Source of the DNA: an uncultured Flavobacteriales bacterium
GTDB taxonomy: Bacteria > Bacteroidota > Bacteroidia > Flavobacteriales_G > Salibacteraceae
Assembly: GCA_937899835.1 (NCBI GenBank)
Contig: CALCCE010000299.1
Span: 1-36,879, forward strand
DNA: 36,879 bases
Reading direction: 5' to 3'
Below the pieces are notes generated by a model, which saw nothing but the letters and a program-made list of their open reading frames with translations, did not search any database and was not told the origin of the DNA. The position numbers and the translations under genes are program-made. Each line of letters opens with the position of its first letter. Position 1 is the stretch's first letter. Positions 6,001 to 32,230 of the stretch are shown here, piece by piece.

Positions 6001-9000
6001 CAATTACCGAACCTGCAGTGTTGGTGGCCACCTCTCAAATCGATACCAGTATCTCATGCAACGGCGATTCCAATGCAGTGGCTACCGGACTGGCTACCGG
6101 CGGAACAATGCCTTACACCTTCTTGTGGAGCAACGGGGCCAATACCGCTACTGTAAGTGGTTTAGGTGCCGGATTGTACCAATTGACCGTGGTAGATGCG
6201 AATGGATGCACAGACAGCACAACCCTTAGCCTGTTAGAGCCTGCGCAACTCATGGCCACGGCAACGGTTGATTCCAATGTGCTTTGTAACGGAGACTCTA
6301 CCGGTGGACTCACCGTAGTGGCCAATGGAGGTACCTCTCCATACAACTACCTTTGGTCAAATGGGGATACTACCGCTTCCATTTCTGGGGTGACAGCTGG
6401 CGTGTATGATGTTACCATCACTGATGCCAACGGCTGTACCACAACGAGTGGTGGAGTTGTCACTGAACCCACTCAGTTGATTGCCAGCGCAGTAGTAGAT
6501 AGCAATGCCACCTGCAACGGCCTGGCAGACGGTGGCGCCTCAGTAAGCGCTACCGGTGGAACCGGGGCCTACACCTACTTGTGGAGCAACAGTGCCACCA
6601 CCAGTTCTATCACAGGGGTGGTTAGTGGTACTTATAGCATCACGGTAACCGATGCCAATGGATGTACTGATTCCACTTCGATTACCATCACCAGTCCGAT
6701 TTCCTTGATTTCGTCGGCGGTGGTAGATTCGAACGCTACTTGTGCTGGTTTTGCCAATGGTGGGGCTACGTCCAGCGCTAATGGAGGAACTCAACCTTAT
6801 ACCTACCAGTGGAGCAATGCTGCCTCTACTGCCTCTATCACTGGGGTGATGGCAGGCACCTATAGTGTAACCATTACTGATAACAACGGATGTAGCGATT
6901 CTTCATCGGTCACGATTACCGAGCCAAATGCATTGACTATTGCTTTGGTGGCTGATTCAATGGTCAGTTGCAACGGCCTTTCAGATGGAGGAGCCAGCGT
7001 TGCTGCCATGGGAGGAACCCTACCTTACTCCTGGTTGTGGAGCAATGCCGATACGAGCACTTCCATTACTGGCTTAATAGCAGGTTCTTATACCGTTACG
7101 CTGACCGATGGCAACGGGTGTAGCGCAGTAGATTCTATTGTCATTACCGAACCAATGGCGATCAGCTTCACGTTAAGTGGAACAGACCTGAATTGTGCAG
7201 GAGATAGTAACGGCTCAGCTCAAGCGAGTGTAAATGGCGGTACTCCTCCTTACAATTACCTCTGGTCAAACGGTGATACCGGATCGCTGAGCAGTGGTTT
7301 GATTGCCGGTACCTATATCCTAACCGTAACGGATAGCAGTGGCTGCGGTCCGGTGGTAGATTCCATTACGATCAATGAACCGGCACCACTGGCATTGGCC
7401 AGCACGGTGAATAATGTGAGTTGTTTTGGAGACACCAATGGGGCCGTCACCCTCAATATAAGCGGAGGAACAGCTCCTTATGCCTATAATTGGTCGACGG
7501 GCGATACTACAGGCAGCCTTAGTGGCTTATTAGCCGGTAATTATTCAGTAACCGTCACCGATTCGCTCGGTTGCATGGATACCTTAACTGCTACGGTAGT
7601 TGAACCTTCCGCTCTGGGAGATACCATTCTAAGTAGTTTTAATCCTTCGTGTGTTGGTGCCATGGATGGCAGCATTGCGGTGAGTGGAACCGGTGGTACT
7701 GCCCCTTACTCCTACCTTTGGTCTACGGGCGATACTACGGCCAACATCAGTGGTTTGAGTGCTGGAACCTACACCGTAATCATTACCGATACTCAAAACT
7801 GTGGACCGTTTACCGATTCGATTGTTTTGGTTGATCCCCCGGTAATTACCGGAGGCATTACTGGCTCCAGCAATGTGTCGTGTAATGGCGACAGTTCTGG
7901 AACAGCAGTGGCCTTAGGCTCTGGTGGTACTGGAACCATCAGCTACTTGTGGTCCAATGGGGATACTACTGACAGTGTTTCCAACTTGCCAGCCGGCACC
8001 TACTTTGTGTCCATCAGCGACAGCAACAATTGTGGCCCTGTAGTGGATTCGGTAACCATTACTCAACCAAATGCTTTGGTATTGAGCCTGTCGAATCAGG
8101 TAAACGTGAGTTGCAATGGAGATAGTAGCGGAATGCTACAAGTAGGTGTAGTCGGAGGCGTTACGCCTTACACCTATCTCTGGTCTAATGGAGATACTAC
8201 CGACAGTGTGAGCGGCCTGCTGGCCGGCACCTACGTGGTTACGGTCACCGATAGCAACGGTTGTACCGATACCCTCTCGGCCAGTATCCTAGAACCTTTA
8301 GCACTGGTGCTTAGCGATACCGTGTCTGACGTAACCTGCAATGGGGATACCAATGGCAGCATTAGCTTGGATGTGAGTGGCGGAACAGCTCCTTACACGT
8401 ACAACTGGTCCAACGGAGATACTACCCAAGTCCTGAACAACCTTGCTGGTGGTAGCTATACTGTAACCGTAACCGATGCCAACGGCTGTAGCGATACCTT
8501 AACCAGTTTTGTTGATGAACCGCTGCTTCTTGTGGCTGCGATCGGTGCTACAACCGACAACTTTTGTTTCGGTGACAGCACAGGTAGCCTATCTGTGATT
8601 GGTAATGGCGGCACACTCCCCTACACCTATCTCTGGTCCAACGGTGACACTGACTCTACCGCCAATGGCTTGCCTGCCGGTACCTATACGGTGACCTTAA
8701 CGGATGCCAACGGTTGTTCGGATACGGCGAGCGCCAGTGTTGTGGCGCCTTCTCCTCTAAATGCTGTTGTGAACTCCGTAACTGACAATCAATGTGCGAA
8801 TGACAGCTCCGGTAGTATCACCCTAACGGTAGGTGGTGGAACCTTCCCTTACTCCTACCTCTGGTCGAATGGCGATACCAGTTCCACAATTTCGGGGCTG
8901 GCTGCTGGTGGATATACCGTAACAGTAAGTGATGCTAACGGATGTACAACGGAGACCGATACCACCGTGTTTGCGCCAAACGCTATTGTCATTACGCTTG

Positions 9001-9917
9001 ACAGCGTAGTTGATGTAGTGTGCAATGGAGATAGCAACGGATCGATTGCCGTTTCGGCTACGGGTGGCAGCTCCCCGCTCAGTTACCTTTGGAATACCGG
9101 CGACACCACTTCAATGTTGAGTAATCTGCTCGCAGGCATTTACACTGTAACGGTAACTGATCAATTGGGCTGCAGCGATAGCTTAACAGGAATTGTTGTG
9201 AGCCAACCCGCTGCCTTATCCGGTGTAGCTACCATTACGCCAGTGCAATGCTTCGGTGAAACGAACGGCAGTGCCACATTGCAAATTAGCGGTGGTACCA
9301 CTCCTTACAGCATCAATTGGTTTGGTGTGGACTCTTCGAACCTTGCAGTAGGCAGCTATCCTTATACCGTGACTGACAGCCTGGGTTGTTCCTTTAGCGA
9401 CTCGGTAGTGGTGACCCAACCAGATTCCATTACAGTGGCGGAGGTGATTACCCCTGAATCATCAGCCGGTGCCAGTGACGGTGCGGTGTGCCTAACCACC
9501 ACCGGTGGTACCTCACCCTACACCTACAACTGGTCGGCTCCTGGTGGTTCTTCTTCCACCCTCTCGGGTTTGGTAGCGGGCACCTACACCGTGACGGTTA
9601 CCGATAGCAACAACTGCTCGAAAGTGGTGAGTTATGAGGTGCCAGTGGTCATTGGTATAGCACCGCTTACTGAAGTATCGAAGTGGAATGTATTCCCGAA
9701 CCCGGCACGAAGAGGCGCCACCTTGACCTGGGAGCATTACCGCAACGCCACAGCTACCGTAGAACTCTACGACATGGCCGGACAAGTAGTGCAACGCCTG
9801 GAACTGCCTGAGCCGGGCAACTACCCGCTCGACCTTCAAGGCATAAGTACGGGGGTGTACTTCGTACGGATGGTGAGTGAAGGGGAAGCACAAACGCTGC
9901 GCTTGATCGTGGAATAA
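3..9917 (+). CDS. Giant SprB-repeat surface protein with T9SS type A sorting domain, 5'-partial
   Basis: The frame is open from the first complete codon at base 3 to TAA at 9915-9917, so the N-terminus (and signal peptide) lies left of the window; the TTG at 84 is not a credible start. The first ~27 residues (AWADGQ...YGVFFQRF) look like the end of a W-x-D-G-Q/QRF-type repeat module upstream. Then come 42 tandem repeats of about 75 residues, each with a GGT-PY-Y-WSN/STG core, a GTY-VTVTD-NGC end and an E/QP linker; this matches SprB repeats (Ig-like, cell-surface adhesin family). Most repeats carry two Cys (VTCNG and NGC), probably one disulfide each. The last ~75 residues (from WNVFPNPARRG, about base 9686) are a T9SS type A sorting domain, predicting outer-membrane export and surface attachment. 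Likely an adhesin or gliding-type surface filament; it is not necessarily the orthologue of SprB itself. It ends at a terminator shared with the convergent next gene. Confidence 0.93.
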   Translation: MAWADGQNSSTSTTDGDDYGVFFQRFSLAAPLSVSLSDSDPVCNGAATGSATATASDGTSPYTYLWSTGGTTVTINSLAAGTYTVTVTDNNGSTATGSTTLSDPSALSAATVVDSNVTCNGFFNGGATASASNGTSPYSYSWSNSATTASITGVSVGTYSVTITDNNGCTDSTAVTITEPTTLSAATVIDSNATCNGFFDGGATASATGGTSPYSYSWSNSATTASITGVAAGTYSVTITDNNGCTDSASVTITQPTTLVASTVVDSNVTCNGFANGGATASATGGTMPYTYNWSNAATTASITGVVVGTYSVTITDNNGCTDSASLTISQPNALVASASTQSNVSCFGGTDGSAMASATGGTSPYTYEWSNSATTASITGLAAGTYSVTITDNNGCTDSASTVVTQPNALVTATSIANAISCNGFTDGQLNASASGGTSPYTYAWNTGTTTSSLTGLGTGTYSVTVTDANGCTDSASATLTQPTALLSSAVVDSNVTCNGFFDGGATASATGGTSPYSYSWSNSATTASITGVVAGTYSVTITDNNGCTDSSSITITEATSLVASTVVDSNVTCSGFANGGGTASATGGTMPYTYSWSNAATTASITGVVAGTYSVTITDNNGCTDSASLTITQPNALVASASTQSNISCSTGADGSAMASATDGTSPYTYAWSNSATTASITGLAAGTYSVTITDANGCTDSASTVVTQPNALVAATSIANAISCNGFTDGQLNASASGGTSPYTYAWNTGATASSLTGLGAGTYSVTVTDANGCTDSASATLTQPTALLSSAVVDSNVTCSGFANGGGTASATGGTMPYSYNWSNAATTASITGVVAGTYSVTITDANGCTDSASITITESTTLVAASVVDSNVTCNGFANGGGTASATGGTMPYTYNWSNAATTASITSVVAGTYSVTITDNNGCTDSASLTITQPNALVASASTQSNVSCSAGADGSAMASATGGTSPYTYAWSNSATTASITGLAAGTYSVTITDANGCTDSASTVVTQPNALVAATSIANAISCNGFTDGQLNASASGGTSPYTYAWNTGATASSLTGLGAGTYSVTVTDANGCTDSASATLTQPTALLSSAVVDSNVTCNGFANGGGTASASGGTMPYSYNWSNAATTASITGVVAGTYSVTITDANGCTDSASITISQPNLLTSTAVIDNSVSCFGASDGAASVSGTGGTMPYTYAWSNATSTASITGVVAGTYSVTITDANGCTDSASVVITEPALLVAAAIADSNISCFGFADGGATASGSGGTAPYSYSWSNSATTASITGVVAGTYSVTITDNNGCTDSASVSVSEPTALLANAVEDSSVSCTGFSDGGATASGTGGTAPYSYTWSNSATTASITGVVAGTYSVTITDNNGCTDSASVVVAAATALVASTTVTNTLACFGDANGAGSASITGGTSPYTYQWSNANTTQSINALLAGTYTVTISDNNGCSVVDSLTITQPTAVSPAAVVDSNVSCNGGTDGGATVSATGGTGPYTFAWSNGATGTVASGLSSGNYTVTVTDNNGCTATDNVTITEPTAVVAQASIDSNASCFSFSDGGATATASGGTAPYSYAWSNSAITASITGVVAATYSVTITDANGCTDSASVTISEPNLLVATAVEDSSVSCSGFSDGGASASASGGTGAYTYLWSNLATTASITGVMAGTYSVTITDANGCTDSASITVAAATALVPSVSTTASPLCFGDATGAMTASISGGTAPYTYLWSNGGTNASISNLTAGTYSVTIADNNGCSVSDSATITEPAMLVPVAVVDSNVSCNGLSDGGASVTVSGGTGAYTYLWSNSATTSSITGVIAGTYTVTVTDANGCTSSDSISITEPVVLVASIMETSPVLCNGDANGELAAVVSGGTFPYTYSWSTGVTTDSLSGLVAGVYALTVTDANGCEDTNSYILTQPALLAGIASADSMVSCNGLSDGGATAAFAGGTAPYTYLWSNGATTASSTGLAAANYTVTVTDNNGCTALDSVAITEPAVLVATSQIDTSISCNGDSNAVATGLATGGTMPYTFLWSNGANTATVSGLGAGLYQLTVVDANGCTDSTTLSLLEPAQLMATATVDSNVLCNGDSTGGLTVVANGGTSPYNYLWSNGDTTASISGVTAGVYDVTITDANGCTTTSGGVVTEPTQLIASAVVDSNATCNGLADGGASVSATGGTGAYTYLWSNSATTSSITGVVSGTYSITVTDANGCTDSTSITITSPISLISSAVVDSNATCAGFANGGATSSANGGTQPYTYQWSNAASTASITGVMAGTYSVTITDNNGCSDSSSVTITEPNALTIALVADSMVSCNGLSDGGASVAAMGGTLPYSWLWSNADTSTSITGLIAGSYTVTLTDGNGCSAVDSIVITEPMAISFTLSGTDLNCAGDSNGSAQASVNGGTPPYNYLWSNGDTGSLSSGLIAGTYILTVTDSSGCGPVVDSITINEPAPLALASTVNNVSCFGDTNGAVTLNISGGTAPYAYNWSTGDTTGSLSGLLAGNYSVTVTDSLGCMDTLTATVVEPSALGDTILSSFNPSCVGAMDGSIAVSGTGGTAPYSYLWSTGDTTANISGLSAGTYTVIITDTQNCGPFTDSIVLVDPPVITGGITGSSNVSCNGDSSGTAVALGSGGTGTISYLWSNGDTTDSVSNLPAGTYFVSISDSNNCGPVVDSVTITQPNALVLSLSNQVNVSCNGDSSGMLQVGVVGGVTPYTYLWSNGDTTDSVSGLLAGTYVVTVTDSNGCTDTLSASILEPLALVLSDTVSDVTCNGDTNGSISLDVSGGTAPYTYNWSNGDTTQVLNNLAGGSYTVTVTDANGCSDTLTSFVDEPLLLVAAIGATTDNFCFGDSTGSLSVIGNGGTLPYTYLWSNGDTDSTANGLPAGTYTVTLTDANGCSDTASASVVAPSPLNAVVNSVTDNQCANDSSGSITLTVGGGTFPYSYLWSNGDTSSTISGLAAGGYTVTVSDANGCTTETDTTVFAPNAIVITLDSVVDVVCNGDSNGSIAVSATGGSSPLSYLWNTGDTTSMLSNLLAGIYTVTVTDQLGCSDSLTGIVVSQPAALSGVATITPVQCFGETNGSATLQISGGTTPYSINWFGVDSSNLAVGSYPYTVTDSLGCSFSDSVVVTQPDSITVAEVITPESSAGASDGAVCLTTTGGTSPYTYNWSAPGGSSSTLSGLVAGTYTVTVTDSNNCSKVVSYEVPVVIGIAPLTEVSKWNVFPNPARRGATLTWEHYRNATATVELYDMAGQVVQRLELPEPGNYPLDLQGISTGVYFVRMVSEGEAQTLRLIVE
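93..9645 (+). repeat. Tandem array of 42 SprB repeats (~225-228 bp unit)
   Basis: Counting the TD/SD-x-NGC/NC end motif gives 42 units in the coding frame. The 5' half (to about 7140) is homogeneous, mostly TTASITG and DNNGCTDSAS variants. The 3' part (about 7140-9640) is more diverse, with SNGDTT cores, NCGPVVDS ends and no near-identical neighbours. The array starts within ~90 bases of the window edge, so more units may exist upstream only if the earlier module is followed by others. Confidence 0.9.
777..3512 (+). repeat. Higher-order tandem repeat: three copies of a 912-bp, four-SprB-repeat block
   Basis: The same order of four distinct repeats (NGFANGG..., STQSN, SIANAISCNG, ALLSSAVVDSN) occurs three times with an exact 912-bp offset. 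For example the string GCCAGTACACAGAGCAAT begins at 1017, 1929 and 2841. Copies 2 (about 1689-2600) and 3 (about 2601-3512) are nearly identical at the nucleotide level over 1930-2410 versus 2842-3322; copy 1 (about 777-1688) is a little more diverged. The period is a multiple of 3, so the frame is kept. Confidence 0.93.
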
Positions 9918-15236: not shown

Positions 15237-15843
15237 TTGAGATAAAGATTTTTGGGTGTTTTTGGAATACCACCAAATGTCTTTGATCTGCCAATACGCG
15301 GTGTCAACGTTTGTATCTAAACCGGAAACGGATGTCACTTTTTAGTCCTAAAAACGGTCCTAACCACATCCAAAGGCTTTTTATCAGCACTTACATCATG
15401 GTAAAAGGAGAATACTGCCATGCTTTTGCACTATCTGAGCACTCCACGTCCATCTCCTTGACCACTGCCTATATAGGCATTTTGCAAACACCCAAAAGAG
15501 TCGCCAACATTGCCGATACATGAGCGCATTTTGTGGGACAATCAATTGGTTGTGAGTACATAAAAAATACAGGGTGTTTCCCAACCCCCAATTTTGATCA
15601 AGCACCCTTACTAGGGTCCATCAAATTTTTTGCTGTTGGATGAAATTCTATCACCCTGACTCCCCATTTGAATCCAGAAATTGACATAGTTTTACGCAGC
15701 AAAAGTTCATTTCGGTCCCCACCCGAAGCATTGCCCCACCATTTTGGTTGCGCCACTCAGTGGCGATACATTTTGCTACAACGTCATTTTTTTGCCCAAA
15801 ACCCTTGGTCACTCACCCAAACTATCCAACTCATTTTTGGTGT
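15237..15843. other. Divergent intergenic region upstream of the beta-helix T9SS gene and the TPR hybrid sensor
   Basis: About 600 bases between two divergent genes. No protein frame here has a convincing start or domain; the frames that overlap it are extensions of the flanking genes ahead of their signal-peptide starts. The one structure I see is the hairpin at 15593-15631. I could not find a clear Bacteroidota-type TTTG/TAnnTTTG promoter pair with correct spacing for either gene. Confidence 0.55.
15593..15631 (+). promoter_or_regulatory. Interrupted hairpin followed by a T-run in the divergent region
   Basis: TTTGAT (15593-15598) pairs with ATCAAA (15620-15625), and inside it ACCCT (15604-15608) pairs with AGGGT (15613-15617) around a TACT loop; six further T follow (15626-15631). 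It sits about 215 bases ahead of the hybrid sensor start. It could be a leader terminator/attenuator or an operator; as it lies between divergent genes, no upstream gene needs it as an ordinary terminator. Confidence 0.3.
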
Positions 15844-18800
15844 ATGCGAAGATTGCTACTCACTGCTTGCTCTCTGCTTTGCTTTGCCATATCGGCAATT
15901 GCCCAACTGTATAAGTACGAGCAAATCGCCCCCCTAAAGGCCAGCTTAAACGAAGCTTCTGCCCAAGCGCGGATCCACCTCTTTTTGAAACTTGCCGACG
16001 GCTATCTCAATTTTCAAATTGACTCTGCGCTGGTGTATGCACAACGTGCACAACAGGATGCCGAAGCCTTAGGATACGCTTGGGGAATACAGAAAGGCAA
16101 GTACCAGGAAGCAAAAGCCCTGGCCCACACTACCGCCAGCAGCACCATAGCCCAGCGGCAACTTTCGTGTGAAGCGTGGTTCAAAAAAAATGACTTCGAA
16201 CATGATGCCTGGTTGTGCCGAATTGAATACCTCAAAAGCATCACCAACTCCAGGCCACTCAAGGTAGTGGCTCAAGAAGCATCCAACATTCTCGATGCGG
16301 TGAACCCTTCCGAAAGCCCATACATCTGCGGAACGGCATGGTATTGTTTGTATGAGGCACAAAGGTCGCACGAGTACAACAAAACCAACTTTAGAGAAAG
16401 TTTGGATACGGCTTTGACCCTTTTTAAACAGGCCCATGATTCCACCGCCATCACCTGGGTCGAACTCAAAAAGATAGAACACAGTGACTTAAAACAAAAT
16501 CAACAACGTTTAAGAGAGGTTTTGCTTCAAGTTTCGAACTGGCAAAACAAGTTGTTGATGTCAGAAAACCTGAACCTGCTAATGCTCACCTACAGTTACC
16601 TCAACCAGCAAGATGCTACCCACCTTATCTGGCCAAAGAACCAACATATTCTTGATGAATACGGAAGCAAGAAAGCCGAGGCGATGTATCATTATTGGAT
16701 GGGAGAAAGCTTGAGTTATCTTAACGAAAAAAAACAAGCTATTCCACACACCAAAAAAGCCATTGCACTTTATGACAAATTAGAGGACAACGTGTTGCTC
16801 TATAAATCGTTAAAAAGTCTTGCAGATTTTAATGAATATTTTCGAAGCTTAGTAGAAGCACTGAACCTTTATTGGCATGCTTTAGAAATTGCCAACGAAT
16901 TGGAGAACCCAATATTTATCAACTTCACCAAAAAGTCCTTGGCATTGATCCACTTACGGACCAAAGAATATGAAAAAGCAGAAAAGCTCACTTTGGAGGT
17001 TCTGAATTATTTCCAAGAATCATTTACGGGCAAACTAAAAAGTAAATTTTGCGGTTTTCAGTATGAAATATTGGGTAGAATCTATCGTACACAACACCGC
17101 TACCACGAAGCGCATGCCGTGTATAACAAAGCACATTCCATCTACTCAAAAGTTAGCCTTCCTGGCAAAATACGGATCGATTGGCAAAAAATAGCCCTGT
17201 TTTTAGATCAATCACAAGTTGATAGTGCTACTGCCGTTTACGCTGAGGTTCAAAAAGAAACCCGCCCCTATCGTAAAAATGACTTTTTCGACATGGTGGA
17301 AGGGAAACTGTTCTTCGCTCAAAAAAAATACTCCGAAGCTGCCAATTCCATTCAAAAGTACCTTAACTCTGGTCAAAGCACGGAGTACAGCCGTAACAAT
17401 AGTGTGGCTCAGGAGTACCTTTATAAAATTGCCAAGGCCCAAGGCAGGTTTTCGGAAGCATTGGAGTACCTGGAAATCCATAAATCCATTGAAGACAGCC
17501 TACAAAGAGTCAATGAGGTGGAAAACATTCTTCTTATTGAATCCAGGTATGAAATTGAACAAAAAGAGGCCGATCTACTGCGGTTGGAACAAGAAAAGCA
17601 ACTCCAATCGTTGACCCTGCAAAGCAAGGAAGACGAACTGTCCATTGGGAGGCTCTATATTTTCATTTTACTGCTCTCATTGTTCCTTTTTGGTGGTGTG
17701 ATTTTTTGGCGGGCAAGGCAAGGAAAACTGAAAAAAGAAAAAGAGGCCATTCGCCATGCCAAAGAACGCGTAGAGTTGGCACAAGCCCGAGCCACCGCCA
17801 ATCAAAAAATAGAGCTTTCGCGTTTGAAAGACGAACTGTTTGCCAATGTGTCGCACGAACTGCGCACCCCACTCACGTTGATTCTGGTGCCCCTAAAAAA
17901 CTTGCTAAAATCTGCCAACAAGAAAGAATTACCGGTGTACGAGTCCATTCTGAAGAGTGGCGATCAGCTGTTGGACCTGGTAGACAAAATATTGGAATTG
18001 TCGCGCTTGGAATCCGGGGCGACTCAACTCCGGAAAAGTTCCATGGATGTAACCGCTTTTGGTCAACAGCTTGAAGCCAGCTTTTTGCCGTTGTTTGATA
18101 GTAAAAACATTGTTTTTCGCGTTGCCTTACCGGATGAAAAGTTGCGCCTGAAGGGAGATGCCAACCGGCTAAAAATGGTGCTCAACAATCTGCTGAACAA
18201 CGCCTTCCACCATTGCCCGGAAAATGGCGAGGTACACTTGCAGATGACATCAAAAACAACCGAAAACGGGCACAAACTGGAAATTCGGGTAAGGAACACG
18301 GGCAATGCGATCCCCGAAGCACTACAAGAACGCATTTTTGACCGCTTTTTTCGGCAAGAGGAACAAGCCTACACCGGTAGCGGCATCGGGCTGGCCCTGA
18401 GTCGCCAAATTGTAGCGATGCACAACGGTACCATTCGAGTAGCCAACGCTGCGATAGAGGGAGTAGAGTTTCAATTGCTGCTCCCAGATGTGGAGTTGGT
18501 AAGCCCCGCTCCAAAACCTGAAGCAACGCCAATCGCTCTTCCCTCAGACGAGGCAAAGAAACATTCCATAGAAGTAGTAGCAAAGCCATTACCCGAAAAG
18601 CCAACGGTTTTGGTAGTAGAAGACAACCTCGAAATGCAAGACCTGCTCAAAGACTTGCTGGCCAATGACTTTTATATTCGCCTGGCCGCCAATGGAATTC
18701 AAGGAGAAGAGATGGCCATAGAGCACCAACCGCAACTCATCCTTAGCGATGTAATGATGCCTGAACGGGACGGAATAGAACTGCTGCAAGTGATCAAGTC

Positions 18801-19356
18801 CAACATTCACACCAGCCACATTCCCGTGGTTTTGTTGACGGCCCGCGCAGACAACGAAAGTCGAATTATCGGTTTCAATGAAGATGCGGACGACTACATC
18901 AGTAAACCCTTTGATCCGGATGCCCTGCGATCGCGCATCCACAACTTATTGCGGCAACGGCAGCAATTGCAAAAGCGGTTTACCCAAAAGCCGACCTTAT
19001 TGCCCAAGACTGCACCTTGCACTACCCTGGACCAGGAATTCATGTCCCGGGCACAGAAAATTGTGGAGACCCACTACACCGATGGTCAATTTTCGGTAGA
19101 GCTATTTTGCCAGGAATTGGCTTTGAACCGAAACAGTGTACACAACAAATTGAAAGCCTTGACCGGCCAGAGTGCCTGGCAATACATTCAAACCTACCGC
19201 CTTTCAAAAGCTGCCGAGCTTCTCCACAACACCACGGACAGTATCAACCTTATTGCTACCGAAACTGGCTTCAACAACCGACAAGCCTTCAACAAGCGAT
19301 TTCGTTCCCACTTTGAAATGACTCCCGGAGAATACCGAAAAAAACCTCCCGCTTAA
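15844..19356 (+). CDS. Hybrid two-component system protein: TPR sensor, HisKA, HATPase, receiver, AraC HTH
   Basis: Start chosen at ATG 15844, which gives a signal peptide (MRRLLLTACSLLCFAISAIA); the frame upstream of it is untranslated-looking. The 1,170-residue protein has a periplasmic sensor half with TPR-like helical repeats (about 40-560), one membrane segment (about 603-622), a short coiled coil, a HisKA dimerisation domain with the phosphoacceptor at about H671 (VSHELRTPL), an HATPase_c domain (NNLLNNAFHH N-box; GSGIGLAL G-box), a receiver domain with phosphoacceptor at about D969 (LSDVMMPERDG) and K in ISKPFD, and a C-terminal AraC-type double HTH (about 1075-1168, ending in TPGEYRKK). 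This is the one-polypeptide HTCS plan of Bacteroidota, but with a TPR rather than the usual Reg_prop/Y_Y_Y sensor. The signal and target genes are not evident from the neighbours. Confidence 0.92.
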   Translation: MRRLLLTACSLLCFAISAIAQLYKYEQIAPLKASLNEASAQARIHLFLKLADGYLNFQIDSALVYAQRAQQDAEALGYAWGIQKGKYQEAKALAHTTASSTIAQRQLSCEAWFKKNDFEHDAWLCRIEYLKSITNSRPLKVVAQEASNILDAVNPSESPYICGTAWYCLYEAQRSHEYNKTNFRESLDTALTLFKQAHDSTAITWVELKKIEHSDLKQNQQRLREVLLQVSNWQNKLLMSENLNLLMLTYSYLNQQDATHLIWPKNQHILDEYGSKKAEAMYHYWMGESLSYLNEKKQAIPHTKKAIALYDKLEDNVLLYKSLKSLADFNEYFRSLVEALNLYWHALEIANELENPIFINFTKKSLALIHLRTKEYEKAEKLTLEVLNYFQESFTGKLKSKFCGFQYEILGRIYRTQHRYHEAHAVYNKAHSIYSKVSLPGKIRIDWQKIALFLDQSQVDSATAVYAEVQKETRPYRKNDFFDMVEGKLFFAQKKYSEAANSIQKYLNSGQSTEYSRNNSVAQEYLYKIAKAQGRFSEALEYLEIHKSIEDSLQRVNEVENILLIESRYEIEQKEADLLRLEQEKQLQSLTLQSKEDELSIGRLYIFILLLSLFLFGGVIFWRARQGKLKKEKEAIRHAKERVELAQARATANQKIELSRLKDELFANVSHELRTPLTLILVPLKNLLKSANKKELPVYESILKSGDQLLDLVDKILELSRLESGATQLRKSSMDVTAFGQQLEASFLPLFDSKNIVFRVALPDEKLRLKGDANRLKMVLNNLLNNAFHHCPENGEVHLQMTSKTTENGHKLEIRVRNTGNAIPEALQERIFDRFFRQEEQAYTGSGIGLALSRQIVAMHNGTIRVANAAIEGVEFQLLLPDVELVSPAPKPEATPIALPSDEAKKHSIEVVAKPLPEKPTVLVVEDNLEMQDLLKDLLANDFYIRLAANGIQGEEMAIEHQPQLILSDVMMPERDGIELLQVIKSNIHTSHIPVVLLTARADNESRIIGFNEDADDYISKPFDPDALRSRIHNLLRQRQQLQKRFTQKPTLLPKTAPCTTLDQEFMSRAQKIVETHYTDGQFSVELFCQELALNRNSVHNKLKALTGQSAWQYIQTYRLSKAAELLHNTTDSINLIATETGFNNRQAFNKRFRSHFEMTPGEYRKKPPA

Positions 19357-20327: not shown

Positions 20328-22784
20328 TCAGCCTACTGCCACTGCTTTTTGATTGATCATGCTCAAAGAGGCGGCACTCAGATGTTCACGCGCCTGAATA
20401 TACCCGTACTCACAACAAATGGTGGCCCCAACCTTTTTCTTTTCCATTTCAGCTGTGTAAGCCAGGTCTAACTTTTGGCATCCCAATGCTTTGGCCCGCA
20501 AAACCGATTGATACAACATCTGCTTGTAGCTGTTGTCGCTGTAGACCTTATCGTAATCCAGCCCCACGAGCAAGGCGTTGTAAACTGCCCCGTTTCTGTA
20601 ACTAAAGAGTACAGCTACGGGCGCTTCAGGATCGGTTTTGAGGGAGAGGGAAACAATATCGTACGACGGATCGCTGTACATGGCCTCGAAGAGGCGGTAG
20701 GGCATTTCAAAATCATTGATCACAAATGCCCGGGAATGCACATTTTTATAGAGTTCATAAAACCGCTTTTGTGTGGCCTTGTCCTTAGGTTTATCATAGT
20801 TCACAATGAAACGGTCCGCATAAGCGGCAATCTCTTTTCTAAAATTGTTCCGGTATTTGTTGCCGATGGTTCGCTCAAATTCCTGTTGGCTATTCCAGTT
20901 CAAATTTTGAACTACCGCATAATTGGGCAATTGATATTCCAAAAATCCAAGATCAAGCATTCGATTTTTAAGGTCAATTGGAGCGCTGCTTTCAATGTCT
21001 TTTAATACGATCTTATCGGCATTTTCTCGCTCTGCTACCTGTTGCATTTGTTGGGTCAGCACCTCCAAGGCTTTTTTCCAGTGGGGGTTGGCCGTATTGA
21101 GGTGAACGGTTTTTCCTACCGAAAAAGGCGTTCCGGTCATTACTGTATAGGAAGTTTGAAAATAAGCATCCGCCTTCCTCCTGACCTCTACCTGCCTGGA
21201 GGTTTCAGGATCGCTCAGCATGTCGTTCTTGGTCAGAAAACAAATGAATACCCCCAATAAAATCAGTTCTCCACGCTCATCCGTAATGCGGGAATAATAA
21301 AATTTTGCGTTTTTTTCCTTTTCCTTGTTATTCGAAAAAGAGCGTTCAAGTGACAGCAAATTAGCATAGGTGTGCGAACCTGTATGCTCAAAATGGTGTT
21401 GCCACTCTTCATGATCCAGCGAAGCAACACTGGTAGTTAAATCGGATTTTACTTGCGCTTGAGCTCCTAAAGCTATCTTTTCCACCGGTTGGCTGAATTG
21501 GAAAGCAGGAATTCGAAAAGATTTGGCTACCTCAACAGGCGAACTGCCTTCACTCAAAATTCCGCTGGTGTATGCCTCCTGCAGTGCAACCAACATGGCA
21601 TCAATTTCCTGGTAACTCAGGTTGTTGTTGATCATAAACCGGATGCCACTTCTTTTGATGGGCACCGCAGGATAACCGGCTGCATTGAGGTAAAACCCTT
21701 TTTCTTTCATTTGTTTCACAATCACAATGGTGATGCGGTGCAGGCCCACCGGGATGAAAAACAACGGACTTTCTGAAGCCTTGTATTGCGGCAGGCCCAG
21801 GGCTTCCAAGCGCTCATTTGTATAGGCAATTTTTTGCCGCAGTTGCTCTTGATGGTCCTTTATTTCCTCGGATTGCAACAGGCGCGAAGCAGCTATGGCC
21901 GCTCCTAACATCGGCGGTTGTATGGGGCCGGAAAAGATCAAAGTACTGCCACAGTTTTTTATTTTTTGCTTCATTTCCTCGTTTGGCAGGAGTACTACAC
22001 CACCGGCGGAAGCAAAGGCTTTGTTTAGAGAAGTGATCATCACCATTTTAGGATGGTGGCTCATCTGGCTTCGTACGTAGCCAATGCCATTGGTGCCGGT
22101 CCAGCCCATGCCATGGGCATCATCAACATAAAGGTGCAGGCATTTGTAGCGTTCCATCAGTTGCTCCAGCTCTTGAAGGGGGGCCATATCGCCATACATG
22201 GAATACACTCCATCGGCCATGTACCATACTCTGTTGTGTTTGTTTTGCAGTTGTTTCAATTTGTTTTCCAAGGCTTCCATAGAGTTGTGCGGAATAATGG
22301 AAATCGGAATGTTATTGGCCTTTAACACCTGAGCGGACAATTGAACACTGGCGTGCACCTGCAAATCTAAAATGACCGCATCGCCCGGTTCTACGATCAC
22401 CGGAAGCGTAGCCATGTGCCCCAAAGTAGTACTTGCTGTTACGATGGCCGGTTGTTCAAAAATACGCTCCAAGTTAGCTTCCAACTCTTGGTAAAGCCCA
22501 AGAGACAAATAAGCCCGCGAACTGGAAAATTGGGTTCCATATTGCTCAAGTGCCTGCATGGCACCCGCTTTCAGGGCCGGGTGATACTCTAAGCCCAAGT
22601 AGCTACAGGAGCCAAAGTTGATGAGCTCTTTTTCGTTCACGGTGATCTGTGAACCGGAAAGTGTTTCGTCTGATGTGAAATTATGAACCAGGCCATTTCG
22701 GTCGGCATCATTCACGATTTGGTTTAAAGTTCGGAGAAATTGTGACACTTTTTTGGCAATTTTTGGGCATTCCCTACTGTACAA
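20328..22784 (-). CDS. Fusion of alpha-oxoamine synthase (PLP enzyme) and GNAT/FemAB-like acyltransferase
   Basis: Residues about 10-400 form a class II PLP alpha-oxoamine synthase, the family of 2-amino-3-ketobutyrate CoA ligase, AONS and serine palmitoyltransferase: NFGSCSYLGLE entry motif, SSSRAYLS, VHASV (PLP-stacking His), DDAHGMGWTG with H224, and the Schiff-base lysine K255 in TSLNKAFASAGG, 31 residues after H224 as expected. Residues about 450-800 are a second domain resembling GNAT/FemAB-type N-acyltransferases (KYRNNFRKEI, YNALLVGLDYDK, GCQKLDLAY). The enzyme would condense an amino acid with an acyl-CoA/ACP and perhaps N-acylate the product; substrates are unknown. Cytosolic; no signal peptide. 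The start is uncertain: 22784 is a TTG, the next in-frame upstream stop is at about 22803-22805, and GTG at 22748 (V13) is an alternative. On the same strand lie an orphan kinase and an SDR. Confidence 0.85.
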   Translation of the reverse strand: MYSRECPKIAKKVSQFLRTLNQIVNDADRNGLVHNFTSDETLSGSQITVNEKELINFGSCSYLGLEYHPALKAGAMQALEQYGTQFSSSRAYLSLGLYQELEANLERIFEQPAIVTASTTLGHMATLPVIVEPGDAVILDLQVHASVQLSAQVLKANNIPISIIPHNSMEALENKLKQLQNKHNRVWYMADGVYSMYGDMAPLQELEQLMERYKCLHLYVDDAHGMGWTGTNGIGYVRSQMSHHPKMVMITSLNKAFASAGGVVLLPNEEMKQKIKNCGSTLIFSGPIQPPMLGAAIAASRLLQSEEIKDHQEQLRQKIAYTNERLEALGLPQYKASESPLFFIPVGLHRITIVIVKQMKEKGFYLNAAGYPAVPIKRSGIRFMINNNLSYQEIDAMLVALQEAYTSGILSEGSSPVEVAKSFRIPAFQFSQPVEKIALGAQAQVKSDLTTSVASLDHEEWQHHFEHTGSHTYANLLSLERSFSNNKEKEKNAKFYYSRITDERGELILLGVFICFLTKNDMLSDPETSRQVEVRRKADAYFQTSYTVMTGTPFSVGKTVHLNTANPHWKKALEVLTQQMQQVAERENADKIVLKDIESSAPIDLKNRMLDLGFLEYQLPNYAVVQNLNWNSQQEFERTIGNKYRNNFRKEIAAYADRFIVNYDKPKDKATQKRFYELYKNVHSRAFVINDFEMPYRLFEAMYSDPSYDIVSLSLKTDPEAPVAVLFSYRNGAVYNALLVGLDYDKVYSDNSYKQMLYQSVLRAKALGCQKLDLAYTAEMEKKKVGATICCEYGYIQAREHLSAASLSMINQKAVAVG

Positions 22785-23232: not shown

Positions 23233-24138
23233 TCACACTTCAATGGGCAACAACACTTTAAAATGACTTCCTTCATTCACTTTGCTTTCCACCGCAATGT
23301 TGCCACAGTGTGCCTTTACAATTTGACAAACAATAGAAAGCCCTAAACCGGTGCTACTTTCTTTTCCTGTGGGCTTCACCGATACTTTGTTGTAAGGATT
23401 AAAAATGAAAGGTAAATCAGACTCCGGTATACCCAACCCCTGATCGATAACCGACACGCACACATTTTCTTTTTCATGAACCTCCTTTTGGGAAATCACT
23501 TTGACAGAAGTGTGCTCGTGGGAAAACTTTATCGCATTGGATATAAGGTTGTGAAAGACTTGTTCCATCTTCAACGGGTCAAAAGAAAAAGCCTCTATTG
23601 AAGAATCAAATCTCGCCTGCAAGTCAATGTTTTTTCGCCGGGCAGAAATGGCCTCCCGATCGATCACTTTTTGGAGAATGTCGTTTAAATTGGCCGTTTG
23701 AGGAACGATATTAAACGTTCCAGAACGAATTAAAGTGAGGTCCAATAAGTTTCGGGCCAACTCTAAGGTATACTCGGCAGTAACGCCAATCTTTTCTACA
23801 ATTTCTTTTTCTAAAGGGGATCCCTGCTTTTCGAGTTCATTCTCCAACAAGTTGGCGAGGCCCTTTATGTTGGATAACGGGGACCGCAAATCATGCGAAA
23901 CGATGGCCAGAAACTGATCTTTAAGGCGATCCATTTTCTCCAGCCTTTGGTTTTGGTCCTGAAGTTTTTTCTCGGCATTGGCAAGAGCTGCATTGGCCTC
24001 ACTAAGTTCCCGAATGGTTACCTGGAGCCCACGCGAACTGTACCGTTGTCTTGCATCCTGAATGGCCTGATATTCTTTCAGTCTGGTTTCCGCCAGAATT
24101 AACCGATCCTCAAGTTGTTTTCGGGTAAGTTGATCCAT
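23233..24138 (-). CDS. Soluble orphan histidine kinase (HisKA-HATPase_c)
   Basis: The preferred start is ATG 24136-24138 (301 residues); the frame continues to a TTG at 24186 that would overlap the SDR gene by 16 bases. No signal peptide or membrane segment is present. An N-terminal coiled coil (about 1-75, rich in Q/E/R/L) leads into HisKA with phosphoacceptor H82 (AIVSHDLRSPLSN), then HATPase_c with N-box (FHNLISNAIKFS), DQGLGIP and STGLGLSI boxes, ending in the usual FKVLLP strand. All catalytic motifs are intact. There is no receiver domain and no adjacent response regulator, so its partner must be elsewhere or it belongs to a phosphorelay. Same strand as, and 32 bases after, the SDR gene, so probably one operon. 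Confidence 0.88.
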   Translation of the reverse strand: MDQLTRKQLEDRLILAETRLKEYQAIQDARQRYSSRGLQVTIRELSEANAALANAEKKLQDQNQRLEKMDRLKDQFLAIVSHDLRSPLSNIKGLANLLENELEKQGSPLEKEIVEKIGVTAEYTLELARNLLDLTLIRSGTFNIVPQTANLNDILQKVIDREAISARRKNIDLQARFDSSIEAFSFDPLKMEQVFHNLISNAIKFSHEHTSVKVISQKEVHEKENVCVSVIDQGLGIPESDLPFIFNPYNKVSVKPTGKESSTGLGLSIVCQIVKAHCGNIAVESKVNEGSHFKVLLPIEV

Positions 24139-24170
24139 AAATGAAGGAGCCGTTCTAAGTTGCTGTTTGA

Positions 24171-24935
24171 TTAGCGTAGGGTCCAACCACCATCATTTAA
24201 AATCGTTTGCCCTGTAACGAATGAAGATTGATCGGAAGCGAGCCATAGGGCCATTTTGGCTTGTTCTTCCGGTTCAGCAAATCTCCCCATGGGAGTATCT
24301 GCCAATAGTGCCATACTAATGTTGGGGTCATCGTACAAGGGAGCTGTCATTGGGGTTTTAGTCCACCCGGGGGCAATTCCATTTACCCGAATTCCTACAG
24401 GAGCAAGGTCTAACCCCAGGGCTCGGGTAAATCCGGCAAGGCCTGTTTTTGAGGCTACGTAAGCAGCACTACCTTCCATGGCCACAACACCACCAATGGA
24501 AGAAATATTTACGATGGTTCCTCTGTTCTGACGTTTCATTTGTGGCACTACTGCCCGACACATGAGGAACGGGGCTTTCAGATTATTTCCAATTAGTTCA
24601 TCGAATTCCTCATCGGTCGTTTCTTCTATTGAATGCCCCAGGTAAACTCCTGCTGCATTGATCAATATATCAATGGTACCAAGCTGATCAATGGTTTGGG
24701 AAACGATCTCTTTTACTGCGGCTTGATGGCTAACATTTGCGGGAAAGACGAGTAAAGACTGGCTTTCATCTTTAGCCTCTACAAGCAATTTCTCGGCAGT
24801 ACTAAGCTTGTCGGCATTGGTATCAACCACCACGACATGGGCTTTTTCTTCCAAAAAAAGCTTCGCAATTGAAAGGCCCATGCCACTGGCTCCACCAGTG
24901 ACAATCACCACTTTATTTTCAAAACAACTATACAT
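24171..24935 (-). CDS. SDR-family NAD(P)-dependent oxidoreductase
   Basis: A 254-residue classical short-chain dehydrogenase/reductase, starting at ATG 24933-24935 (a TTG at 24956 would add seven residues). It has the cofactor glycine motif TGGASGMG (13-20), an acidic D38 at the end of the second strand (VVVDTN) that favours NAD(H), NAAG (93-96), and the catalytic S146, Y159 and K163 (YVASK). The C-terminal FVTGQTILNDGG is typical of the family. The substrate cannot be read from sequence. It is the first gene of a minus-strand pair with the orphan kinase and lies 1.4 kb upstream of the oxoamine synthase fusion, so a ketone reduction in the same pathway is possible but unproven. Confidence 0.9.
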   Translation of the reverse strand: MYSCFENKVVIVTGGASGMGLSIAKLFLEEKAHVVVVDTNADKLSTAEKLLVEAKDESQSLLVFPANVSHQAAVKEIVSQTIDQLGTIDILINAAGVYLGHSIEETTDEEFDELIGNNLKAPFLMCRAVVPQMKRQNRGTIVNISSIGGVVAMEGSAAYVASKTGLAGFTRALGLDLAPVGIRVNGIAPGWTKTPMTAPLYDDPNISMALLADTPMGRFAEPEEQAKMALWLASDQSSFVTGQTILNDGGWTLR

Positions 24936-25280
24936 GGAACAAGATTTCAGATTCAATCAGGTAAACCTAAGAAAAACTCACCCCATAGCAATTGCGTGGC
25001 CGAAATTACCATAGTGACGCTGGTGCCTCACTTCATCAGGCCTTCATCGTACAAGTCAGCTATCATTTCAAAGAAATTACGGGGCCGAATTTCTTTAGTA
25101 GGCTCAAATACGTAGAACTTTTATGCATTGTTTCATTCCAATTCAAGATCGATTGGAACCATCAATATTTAGTACCCGATGGATCAAACCTGATTCTTTA
25201 CTTGCGATTCGCTCCCATTAAAAAAGCCGGAGAACCGCTAATCATCTGCGGTCTCCGGCTTTTTTGAAGGTTAGTTAAGC
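24936..25280. other. Intergenic region between SDR gene and small unknown gene
   Basis: About 345 bases holding the strong hairpin terminator at 25220-25265 next to the small gene, and presumably the promoter of the SDR-kinase pair near 24940-25010, which I could not delimit. No coding frame here is convincing; the one open frame crosses the terminator. Confidence 0.5.
25220..25265. terminator. Strong bidirectional intrinsic terminator after the 98-residue unknown gene
   Basis: AAAAAAGCCGGAGA + CCGC (25220-25238, one bulged A) pairs with GCGG + TCTCCGGCTTTTTT (25248-25265) around a 9-base loop. It begins 15 bases beyond the stop of the minus-strand gene 25281-25577 and should end its transcript; the A/T tails make it usable from either side. 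Confidence 0.88.
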
Positions 25281-25577
25281 TTAGCCGGTGATGGCAATCA
25301 CCGCAGCTACCACGTAGCCAGTCATGTCGTGGCCACTGTTGTCGTCCAATTTATAGGTCACATTCCACTTTACTTGCGGTCCTGACCAGGAGATGTCGGA
25401 AATCTCCAATTGAATGTCGCGCATCATGTGATCCTTGTTGCTGCCATAAGTACCGTTGATGGCTTGAAGCACTACCGTAGCGCCCGTGATGTTGGTACCA
25501 TCGGGAAAGTTAGCAATCGCGGGTTGGGTTCCTGATCCGCTAAAAGAGGTGGTTACAGATTGAAAAATAGTTCCCAT
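25281..25577 (-). CDS. Small beta-rich protein of unknown function (98 aa)
   Basis: ATG at 25575-25577. No signal peptide, membrane segment or cysteine. The composition (alternating hydrophobic strands such as GATVVLQAI, IQLEISDISW, VKWNVTYKL, GYVVAAVIAI; many G, S, T, N, D) suggests a small all-beta sandwich. The W-centred hairpin and the late AVIAI strand faintly recall small lectin-type sandwiches, but I do not recognise a family. It has its own strong terminator, and so is probably a single-gene transcript and possibly well expressed. It is divergent, with 193 bases between, from the operon of another small unknown protein and a sensor kinase. Confidence 0.7.
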   Translation of the reverse strand: MGTIFQSVTTSFSGSGTQPAIANFPDGTNITGATVVLQAINGTYGSNKDHMMRDIQLEISDISWSGPQVKWNVTYKLDDNSGHDMTGYVVAAVIAITG

Positions 25578-29441: not shown

Positions 29442-30302
29442 TTAAACCGGAAACACGCGAGCGGCATGCTCGATGCTCGTGCCAAAGGCATCGCGGTTCA
29501 AGCCCGTCTCAATTCCGAATTCATCAAAATAGCTCATGAGGTTTTCGGTGGCCAGGTTGCCCACTAATTTGTCTTCGGCCATGGGACAACCTCCGTAGCC
29601 TTTCATGGCCGCGTCAAACCTGCGGCAGCCACTTTCCCAGGCAGCTGCCACCTTTTCTTTCCAGCTGGCAGGGTTCGAATGCAAATGGGCTCCGAACTCC
29701 ACTTTAGGAAAATGGGGAATCAACGCATTGAAGAGGTATTGAATGTTTTCAGGATTCGACACGCCCACCGTATCGGCCAGGGCAATGATGTCGATGCCCA
29801 GGTCTTCAATCAATTTACCCGTCCATTCTTGCACCACATCCCGGTTCCAGGGATCGCCATAAGGGTTGCCAAATGCCATGGAAATGTAAACCACCACTTT
29901 TTTGTTGTGTTTGGCGCACTGTTCGGCAATGTCGGCCACACGTTGCAGCGATGCTTCACGGGTGGAATTGATGTTGCGCAATTGAAAGGTTTCGGAAATC
30001 GAAAAGGGGAATCCCAAATAATCGATTTGATCGAAACGACAAGCATCTTTTGCCCCACGCAAATTGCCAACAATGGCCAGAAGTTTGGTTTGGGTAGTGG
30101 AAAGGTCCAGCCGTTCCAGCACCTCGGCCGTATCGCGCAGTTGTGGAATGACCGGATACGAAACGAAGCTCCCAAAGTCCAAGGTGTCAAAGCCTACAGA
30201 AAGCAAATCCTGGAGATAAGCTACTTTTTGATCCGTAGGAATAAAAGTATCTATGCCTTGCATAGCATCACGTGGACATTCAATCAGTTTGGGAGTAACC
30301 AT
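29442..30302 (-). CDS. mvaB: Hydroxymethylglutaryl-CoA lyase
   Basis: A 286-residue TIM-barrel enzyme of the HMGL-like family, which splits 3-hydroxy-3-methylglutaryl-CoA to acetoacetate and acetyl-CoA at the end of leucine breakdown. It has the N-terminal ECPRDAMQG motif (the catalytic Arg and metal-binding Asp), the ALADTVGVSNP segment, the metal-binding HLHSNP, and the signature GYGGCPMAEDK with the active-site Cys. ATG start at 30300-30302. Length is close to the usual ~290-300. It is the last gene of a minus-strand run, 27 bases after pepE. The other members do not share a pathway with it, so the run looks like a housekeeping operon. Confidence 0.92.
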   Translation of the reverse strand: MVTPKLIECPRDAMQGIDTFIPTDQKVAYLQDLLSVGFDTLDFGSFVSYPVIPQLRDTAEVLERLDLSTTQTKLLAIVGNLRGAKDACRFDQIDYLGFPFSISETFQLRNINSTREASLQRVADIAEQCAKHNKKVVVYISMAFGNPYGDPWNRDVVQEWTGKLIEDLGIDIIALADTVGVSNPENIQYLFNALIPHFPKVEFGAHLHSNPASWKEKVAAAWESGCRRFDAAMKGYGGCPMAEDKLVGNLATENLMSYFDEFGIETGLNRDAFGTSIEHAARVFPV

Positions 30303-30329
30303 GGCGTTGGGATTCGGGCGTTTTGGTGT

Positions 30330-31052
30330 TTAGGCGTTGGACAGCAATTGATTCACCGGACCGGGTTGCAATTCCTCGGGAGTCTTGCCGGCATTGAACA
30401 AACGTGCCGTGTGCGGTCCTTTCAATTCCAATTGGTTGTTTTCCAGGCGCAGCCAGCTGCCTTCGCGCAAGCCCAGTACCGGCTGGGTATTGAAATGGTG
30501 AAATTCTTTGATGCGGGTTTCGCGGGTTTCACCCATGTGGGTAGAACCTTCGATAGGATCGAGGTAATGTGGATTGATGTTGAAAGGCACAAAAGCCAGC
30601 GCGTCCAGGCTGGGCGGGTGCACGATGGGCATGTCGTTGGTGGTGTTGACGGTGAGGCCCGTAAGGTTGGCTCCTGCGCTGGTGCCCATGTAAGGCGTTC
30701 CTGCACCTACAGCCGCTTGCAGAGCAGGTATGAGCTCCCGTTCGTAGAGGGTTTTGAGCAGCACAAACGTGTTGCCGCCACCGGTGAAAAAGCCGCCCGC
30801 CTCTCGGATGGCTTGGGCAGGATCGTCAAACGTATGCAAACCACGGATGGACAAGCCCACACTGGCAAACGCCTTTTGCGCCAGCTCGGTGTAGCCGTCG
30901 TGCGAAATGCCACCTGGCCGGGCATAAGGAATAAAAATCAGGTTTTCGCGGCCATGAAAAAAATTCGCCACTTCGGGCAGAATGTATTCCAGGTAGCCAC
31001 TTCCGTGGATGGTGGAAGTGCTCACGATGAGCAATCGGGAAGTACTGGTCAT
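30330..31052 (-). CDS. pepE: Dipeptidase E (alpha-aspartyl dipeptidase, peptidase family S51)
   Basis: A 240-residue cytosolic serine peptidase that removes N-terminal Asp from dipeptides. The nucleophile S125 sits in the elbow GTSAGANL; D140 (NTTNDMPIV) and H162 (NINPHYLDP) fit the remaining triad at the family spacing, and FTGGGNTF marks the preceding glycine-rich loop. Its ATG overlaps the pyrD stop in a 4-base ATGA (31049-31052), which implies translational coupling, and mvaB follows after 27 bases. Length is near the family norm of ~230. Confidence 0.93.
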
Positions 31053-32083
31053 TGCATAGAATGGTTGAGAATAGCCTCGTTGATGCGCTTGATCAAGTCG
31101 GGCCCTTCGTAGATGAATCCGGTATAGAGTTGCACCAAAGAAGCTCCGGCTTCAAGCTTTTCGATGGCGTCTTCGGCCGAGTGAATGCCACCTACTCCAA
31201 TGATGGGAAAGGCATGGTTTGATTTTTCGGCCAAATAGCGAATGACTTCCGTGGAGCGTTCACGCAATGGTTTGCCGCTGAGGCCGCCGGCTTCGTTGGC
31301 AATTTTTGCATCGGTTTTCAGGCCTTCACGCGAAATGGTGGTGTTGGTGGCAATGATGCCATCAATGCCGGTTTCCGCCACGATAGCAATGATGTCGTCG
31401 AGTTGGCCGTCGGTGAGATCAGGAGCAATTTTGAGCAAGAGCGGCTTGGGCCGCGCCTTCTTCTTGTTGCGGTCCATCAAGCCTTTGAGCAGCTTGGTGA
31501 GCGGCTCTTTGTCTTGTAAATCGCGCAGGTTGGGCGTGTTGGGCGAACTTACGTTCACCACAAAATAGTCCACGTGCTCAAACAAAGCATCAAAACAGTA
31601 GTGGTAATCGTTTTCGGCTTCTTCGTTGGGCGTCACTTTGTTTTTGCCAATGTTGCCACCCACAATCAATCCGGCGGGCCTTGAACGCAGGCGCTCAACA
31701 GCCGCTTCTACTCCTTCGTTGTTGAACCCCATGCGGTTGATAAGGCCAGCATCCGCTTGCAGGCGAAACATCCGGGGTTGCGGATTTCCGGACTGCCCTT
31801 TGGGCGTTACGGTGCCAATTTCGATGAAGCCAAACCCCAGGTGCGCAAAATCTTTGTAAAGGCGGGCATCTTTATCGAAACCCGGTGCCAAACCTACCGG
31901 GTTGGTAAAACGCAGGCCAAAAACCTGACGTTCGAGCCTGGGGTCGCGGTTGACGAACCGGCCTCTGGTAAAGGTCTTTACACCTGGAAATTTGAGCAAA
32001 AAGCCAAACCAGGAAGTGGTGAAGTGGTGTGCCGATTCGGGGGCTAAAAGAAAAAACAGGGGACGAAAAAGTGCTTTGTACAT
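31049..32083 (-). CDS. pyrD: Dihydroorotate dehydrogenase (quinone), class 2
   Basis: Oxidises dihydroorotate to orotate in pyrimidine synthesis, passing electrons to the quinone pool at the inner face of the cytoplasmic membrane. Start at ATG 32081-32083 (344 residues); a GTG at 32107 would add eight. The N-terminal hydrophobic helices ([15 protein letters not shown]...[12 protein letters not shown]) are the quinone/membrane-contact region that defines class 2. Core motifs are [29 protein letters not shown], the catalytic Ser in [36 protein letters not shown] and GVGGI. First gene of the pyrD-pepE-mvaB run; its promoter should lie in the 147-base divergent gap before the membrane-protein gene at 32231. 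Confidence 0.95.
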
Positions 32084-32230
32084 GAACGGCCAAAATTTCC
32101 GGACCACAAAGGTAAACCTTTCCTACCGTTTGCCCACCGCTTAGGAAATGAAGAAAAGGCTGTTGAAATCTTCTCCAAGTGATTTCCTGGTACACGTATT
32201 TTCCCGCTATTTTAGCCCAACTTCGACTAT

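Follow-up and report, generated by a model that had tools for sequence, protein, structure and literature searches.

The window (the whole stretch of DNA analysed, 36,879 nucleotides from an uncultured Flavobacteriales bacterium) carries a gene in which an alpha-oxoamine synthase (AOS) is followed, in the same chain, by a domain of acyltransferase type. This raises the question of what such a protein makes. An earlier note, made from the sequence alone, had read it as an intact synthase fused to a GNAT/FemAB-like domain, with both steps in one polypeptide, and had proposed a ceramide- or sulfonolipid-like lipid as the possible product.

Anatomy of the fusion gene

The ORF is open throughout its 818 codons (Table 1). 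Its homologues begin around residue 13, a position at which the window gene has an in-frame GTG (22748..22746). In the full-length AlphaFold2 model (pLDDT 91.7), residues 1-10 have a pLDDT of 45, the chain being disordered ahead of residue 13. From these two observations, the real coding sequence is probably 20328..22748, starting at the GTG and encoding ~806 amino acids. The fused architecture was kept in at least 80 full-length loci. Thus, the fusion is real; it is neither a product of chance or of an assembly join, nor unique to this genome.

Table 1. Features of the fusion gene and of the two genes upstream of it (positions in the window)
Feature	Position	Strand	Basis
AOS-tandem-GNAT fusion gene	20328..22784	minus	818 codons from TTG
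AOS domain, residues 20-406	21567..22727	minus	PF00155, NCBIfam matches, AOS fold
Cys60, in family signature SCSYLGL	22605..22607	minus	alignment
His144, aligned with PLP-stacking His of AOS enzymes, invariant	22353..22355	minus	alignment
D221-x-x-H224 motif (VDDAHG), PLP-ring Asp and His, invariant	22113..22124	minus	alignment
Lys255, PLP Schiff-base lysine, invariant	22020..22022	minus	alignment
Arg382, aligned with substrate-carboxylate Arg of AOS enzymes, invariant	21639..21641	minus	alignment
Predicted tandem-GNAT (FemX/NMT-like) domain, residues 444-800	20385..21455	minus	AlphaFold2, Foldseek, VIA-align
PF13480 Acetyltransf_6 match, residues 643-779, second GNAT half	20448..20858	minus	Pfam
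Soluble sensor histidine kinase, 317 aa, no TM, no PAS	23233..24186	minus	Pfam
SDR (FabG-like) reductase, overlaps kinase gene	24171..24956	minus	Pfam, NCBIfam

The N-terminal domain matched PF00155 over residues 20-406 with 103.9 bits, and the structural matches to this part of the full-length model were BioF, ThAOS, Alb29 and SPT. H144, D221, H224, K255 and R382 match known AOS residues and were invariant among 55 family members. The domain has the complete set expected of the alpha-oxoamine synthase superfamily, i.e., a fold-type I PLP domain with the Lys, the PLP Asp, the stacking His and the carboxylate Arg, and the intact synthase that the earlier note had described from H224 and K255 is confirmed at both residues. 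One position is different. Cys60, nearly invariant in the 55 members, replaces the Asn that precedes YLGL in SPT, SulA, KBL, BioF and CqsA. Some SPTs have Tyr at this active-site position. Judged from the alignment, the change from Asn to Cys may mean an altered reaction. For SulA, activation of the carboxylate of the substrate has been ascribed to Asn53, and His140 is the PLP-stacking His (PMC9304779).

In the C-terminal part, PF13480 matched the window protein with 36.9 bits; among the relatives, PF13480 was matched in 45/55 and PF04339 (FemAB_like) in 13/55. A search of the PDB with a sequence profile of this domain gave chance matches only. Residues 430-818 modelled alone with AlphaFold2 had a pLDDT of 93.5, and Foldseek and VIA-align matched this model over its whole length to Sba18/Sbb17, FemX and FemA (Z about 20-22.6) and to N-myristoyltransferase (NMT; Z about 17), at sequence identities of 7-14% (10-14% for Sba18/Sbb17 and FemX). 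Since the tandem-GNAT matches span the whole domain, with two GNAT halves in a single domain as in the FemX/NMT fold, the predicted structure identifies the C-terminal region as one two-lobed, FemX/NMT-like transferase, bigger than the single GNAT half seen by Pfam. The fused GNAT/FemAB-like domain of the earlier note is borne out by this prediction, and the absence of an acyltransferase-type fold, which would have counted against that proposal, was not observed. The folds of FemX/FemA/Sbb17 and NMT serve N-acylation or aminoacylation of amines. FemX and Sbb17 use aminoacyl-tRNA as donor and NMT uses acyl-CoA, and a common fold does not discriminate between these donors.

Phylogenetic placement of the synthase

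Two trees were built, one by a quick method (98 rows) and one by a careful method (68 rows). E. coli BioF and a SulA encoded in the same genome (L004) formed long branches; they were included in the quick tree only and left out of the careful tree. In both trees, fused and standalone AOS proteins formed one clade (100/100 and in 100% of bootstrap trees in the careful analysis). On a long stem (3.2), this clade was separate from KBL, CqsA and the two types of SPT in both trees, and BioF and SulA did not join it in the quick tree. The fusion belongs to an uncharacterised bacterial AOS family. Within it, the window gene was placed in arm B (100/100, careful tree) with relatives from Fulvivirga, Kordia, Aureispira, Saprospiraceae, an Oceanospirillaceae, a Thiotrichaceae, Myxococcota and a Xenococcaceae cyanobacterium, and a paralogue from the same genome (L002) was placed in arm F. 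The two trees conflict on the standalone AOS proteins (S), which were grouped with arm F in the careful tree (95/99) and fell outside the fused ones in the quick tree (support 82).

Among NCBIfam models, PRK07505 scored the window AOS at 277 bits, BioF at 214, the BioF/Kbl-related model at 181, SPT at 177 and CqsA at 116, and every AOS model scored the protein below its own cut-off. An identity as SPT was rejected (176.7 and 162.2 bits against cut-offs of 640 for NF047600 and 500 for NF047599; separate clade, 100/100), the nearly invariant Cys60 being found at the position of the SPT active-site Asn. SulA/CFAT was not supported either: in the quick tree, where L004 is a long branch, the protein does not group with it, and Gly-Pro is found at the position aligned with FAKS, where SulA has Lys281. 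KBL was rejected with scores below all NCBIfam cut-offs and a position apart from KBL in both trees, BioF with 213.8 bits against the 426.45 of TIGR00858 and no joining to E. coli BioF (a long branch, quick tree), and CqsA with 115.9 bits against 428 (NF005526) and a position outside the CqsA clade in both trees. Membership in PRK07505 (NF005697) was also rejected, as the 277 bits, the best score of all models, are below the curated cut-off of 342. The clustering with KBL (both trees) or BioF (quick tree only) that the earlier note had named as fatal to its proposal was thus absent.

The same genome also encodes KBL (L003), beside a glutamate-dehydrogenase-like gene, and the separate SulA, which matched 7u7h (titled 7-keto-8-aminopelargonate synthetase-like) with 590 bits and 28eh (titled cysteate-C-fatty acyltransferase) with 548 bits. 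No SPT and no BioF in this genome scored over the NCBIfam family cut-offs.

Distribution of the family

When GTDB contigs were scanned with a single protein as query, no match was obtained, but an alignment query recovered at least 80 homologues, nearly all of them full-length fusions. Most are from Bacteroidota, and a small number come from Pseudomonadota, Myxococcota and Cyanobacteria. In an even draw of Bacteroidia, 64/395 matched at E<=1e-100, 32 or so with the fusion and the rest with standalone AOS genes of about 420-465 aa. At 1e-50, matches were found in 4/339 genomes of the cyanobacterial phylum and 2/398 of Pseudomonadota, one of the latter being a standalone AOS. The fusion was present in 0/24 genomes searched from the same family. 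This patchy, accessory distribution fits a specialised product. The paralogue L002 (L230 9539-14782, contig C94) is a second AOS-tandem-GNAT fusion, with 32% identity to the window protein; fatty-acid beta-oxidation-like genes are located near it.

Across the loci examined, both domain profiles matched 127 fused ORFs, some of which are repeat copies of one gene, and 24 ORFs had the AOS only. No separate gene for the C-terminal domain was detected near these 24 in those loci. Given that the standalone AOS proteins are without this domain and have no gene for it nearby, the family as a whole does not depend on N-acylation. Four standalone genes (L157, L158, L163 and L164) are located near genes that, by eye, are phenylacetate/beta-oxidation-like (thiolase, enoyl-CoA hydratase, hydroxyacyl-CoA dehydrogenase, PaaI- and PaaD-like). 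Another, from Pseudomonadota (L229 6545-11048), has CSYLGL, overlaps a 372-aa gene without a Pfam match and adjoins a divergent MMPL-type transporter.

Gene context

Arm F loci carry a divergent DUF7793 gene at -1 (52/66) and histidine kinase or response regulator genes at -2 (36/64) and -3 (30/59), against a two-component background of 19/289 (6.6%) five to eight genes away; these loci are partly redundant (several are from Pontibacter) and so are not independent samples. The standalone AOS, too, has a kinase or regulator as its neighbor at 16 of 20 loci, these kinases mostly having several predicted N-terminal TM segments. The paralogue L002 occurs with DUF7793, a PAS histidine kinase and a single-domain receiver protein. 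By analogy, this layout resembles cqsA/cqsS and lqsA/lqsR/lqsS, in which the six-TM kinases CqsS and LqsS are paired with an AOS (PMC3376566). A literature search, with most subscription journals outside its reach, yielded nothing relevant on AOS-GNAT fusions or DUF7793.

In arm B, on the other hand, DUF7793 was found in 0/15 loci, the neighbors are mostly unrelated, and a kinase at -1 occurs in 1/15, the window itself. Because arm B has almost no conserved context, a signal role for the window gene would have to be taken from its relatives only. Two arm B loci have lipid-type partners. In the cyanobacterium (L045), genes for FAAL, ACP and a 348-aa protein precede the fusion, and L048 has radical SAM, fusion and FA_hydroxylase genes with gaps of about 20 bp.

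In the window, the SDR and kinase ORFs overlap each other 448 bp upstream of the fusion gene and could belong to the same transcription unit, and the SDR is a possible ketoreductase. As conserved partners, both were rejected: the SDR is not kept beside the relatives, and within arm B the kinase was found in the window only. Elsewhere in the window, an aspartyl/asparaginyl beta-hydroxylase (PF05118; 19477-20163) is convergent with the fusion gene, and two genes downstream of the fusion a TPR-hybrid histidine kinase-response regulator-AraC protein is encoded (15748-19356). A 98-aa ORF on the minus strand (25281-25577; MGTIFQSVTTSFSGSG...) is followed by what appears by eye to be a GC-rich hairpin and a T run. 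HMGL-like, peptidase S51 and dihydroorotate-dehydrogenase-like genes follow one another at 29442-32107 (minus), and 3-9917 encodes a giant protein of gliding adhesin type that matched the SprB repeat 37 times and has a C-terminal sorting domain of T9SS type.

Proposed function and alternatives

We favor a single-chain, two-step enzyme that would make an N-acyl-alpha-aminoketone as a signal or a specialised (secondary) lipid, an explanation to which we give an even chance. The N-terminal PLP domain would carry out a decarboxylating condensation between an amino acid and an acyl-CoA or acyl-ACP thioester, yielding an alpha-aminoketone, and the C-terminal tandem-GNAT domain would move an acyl group onto the new amine. 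The resulting N-acyl-alpha-aminoketone would be chemically like 3-keto-ceramide, perhaps shorter, and is most likely a signal or a specialised lipid and not a bulk membrane sphingolipid. The invariant catalytic set, the AOS fold, the predicted tandem-GNAT fold and the retention of both domains as a fusion in so many loci argue for this model, as do the lipid-type partners in L045 and L048, the patchy distribution and the two-component link of the sister arm; Cys60, the aminoacyl-tRNA use of FemX-type enzymes, the standalone AOS without the C-terminal domain and the arm B context argue against it. As an idea, the two steps in one chain proposed by the earlier note gain support from the intact synthase and from the acyltransferase-type fold predicted for the fused domain. 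Because most family members, though not its own branch, adjoin signal-sensing genes, the fusion may make a lipid or a chemical signal, and not a ceramide.

A rival possibility is that the fusion is the synthase of a two-component system, its (N-acyl) aminoketone, diffusible or membrane-borne, being sensed by a histidine kinase as in CqsA/CqsS and LqsA/LqsS. In the window, this role would fall to the kinase at 23233..24186 and/or to the hybrid protein (kinase and regulator) at 15748..19356. The arm F context, the mostly multi-TM kinases beside the standalone AOS, the neighbors of the genome's own paralogue (DUF7793, PAS-HK and RR) and the pairing of six-TM kinases with an AOS in the known systems point in this direction, although the supporting loci are partly redundant. 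However, arm B has no such enrichment, the window kinase lacks both PAS and TM segments, and the AOS is outside the CqsA clade and far below its cut-off; we consider this reading rather unlikely. The CqsA-like signal that the earlier note had mentioned as an alternative is unexpectedly supported by the sister arm's gene context, although the enzyme lies outside the CqsA clade. By analogy with the known systems, a signal role would be supported for the sister arm, and for the window gene by kinship only. More broadly, and tentatively, we suggest as possible though somewhat unlikely that AOS(-tandem GNAT)/DUF7793/kinase/regulator loci are an undescribed, widespread signalling system of Bacteroidota with an AOS-made (N-acyl) aminoketone signal, distinct from CqsA/LqsA. 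The window gene would then be a horizontally spread synthase arm making the same class of molecule without receptor genes of its own.

The original proposal of the earlier note, a single-chain synthase of 3-keto-ceramide or a capnine-type lipid with an SPT- or SulA-like step followed by N-acylation, has the same reaction logic as Spt followed by bCerS. The FAAL and ACP of L045 resemble the AasR and AcpR partners of rhodobacterial SPT, L048 has its FA_hydroxylase partner, an SDR is located two genes upstream of the window gene, and the genome has no SPT above the cut-offs. Against these points, the AOS clade is apart from SPT (100/100) and, in the quick tree, from SulA, the signature Asn is replaced by Cys, the genome has a separate SulA, the C-terminal domain has no sequence similarity to YghO in a single-sequence comparison, and the SDR is not kept by the relatives. 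The anatomy given in the earlier note was right, whereas clade, signature residue, C-terminal domain and separate SulA weaken its ceramide/sulfonolipid assignment, which is not supported and which we regard, as one reading of several, as quite unlikely. It could also be that the C-terminal domain is an aminoacyl-tRNA-dependent transferase (FemX/Sbb17-like) and the product an aminoacylated aminoketone, a peptide-like natural product. The top structural matches, Sba18/Sbb17 and FemX, do use aminoacyl-tRNA; yet their identity to the domain is only 10-14%, the Pfam matches are PF13480/PF04339, the acyl-CoA-using NMTs match the whole domain as well and the arm B partners are of lipid type, and this reading appears very unlikely.

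If the two-step model is true, a large AOS family produces N-acylated aminoketones with a single polypeptide, as a shortcut for the condense-then-N-acylate logic of bacterial ceramide synthesis. The kinase- and DUF7793-linked arm would then be a small-molecule signalling route in Bacteroidota and would provide the first functional context for DUF7793.

Comparison with known systems

In the bacterial ceramide route, Spt is followed by bCerS, which acts on the 3-keto base, and by CerR (PMC11087976); our two-step model shares, by analogy, this logic of Spt followed by an acyltransferase. In E. coli B, the ceramide genes, whose roles have been described (PMC9386255), are in the order yghO, FAAL, epimerase, ACP, spt, to which L045 appears parallel in kind. 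The Caulobacter ceramide acyltransferase has a homologue in E. coli B, YghO, which was compared at the sequence level only; as a single sequence without a profile, YghO had no similarity to the C-terminal domain by BLASTP or hhalign, and an unrelated control scored no worse. No relatives of this domain were found beside proteobacterial spt genes. SPT and bCerS/YghO share with the fusion the proposed reaction order and, in one fusion relative (L045), the FAAL and ACP partners, but they are two separate proteins, and the fusion AOS differs from SPT by clade and by Cys in place of Asn. SulA/CFAT has the AOS fold and the PLP-binding His, Lys and Arg in common with the fusion, but is a separate gene in this genome (L004) and the fused AOS is outside its branch (quick tree only). 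FemX/FemA, Sbb17/Sba18 and N-myristoyltransferase match the predicted fold of the whole C-terminal domain (Z about 17-22.6), but at 7-14% identity, and the domain is here fused to an AOS. CqsA/LqsA systems couple an AOS to a sensor kinase and response regulator, a gene layout that the sister arm (F and S) resembles, whereas the window arm is uncoupled; they have neither a DUF7793 partner nor a tandem-GNAT domain, and CqsA, the one of the two that was included in the trees, belongs to another AOS clade. PRK07505 (NF005697, an AOS subfamily annotated as hypothetical protein) is the AOS model with the best score for all members tested (235-277 bits). It is a standalone AOS of 405 aa without a tandem-GNAT domain, and the window AOS is below its cut-off; however, a PRK07505 member over the cut-off (L227) has the CSYLGL signature common to the fusion family.
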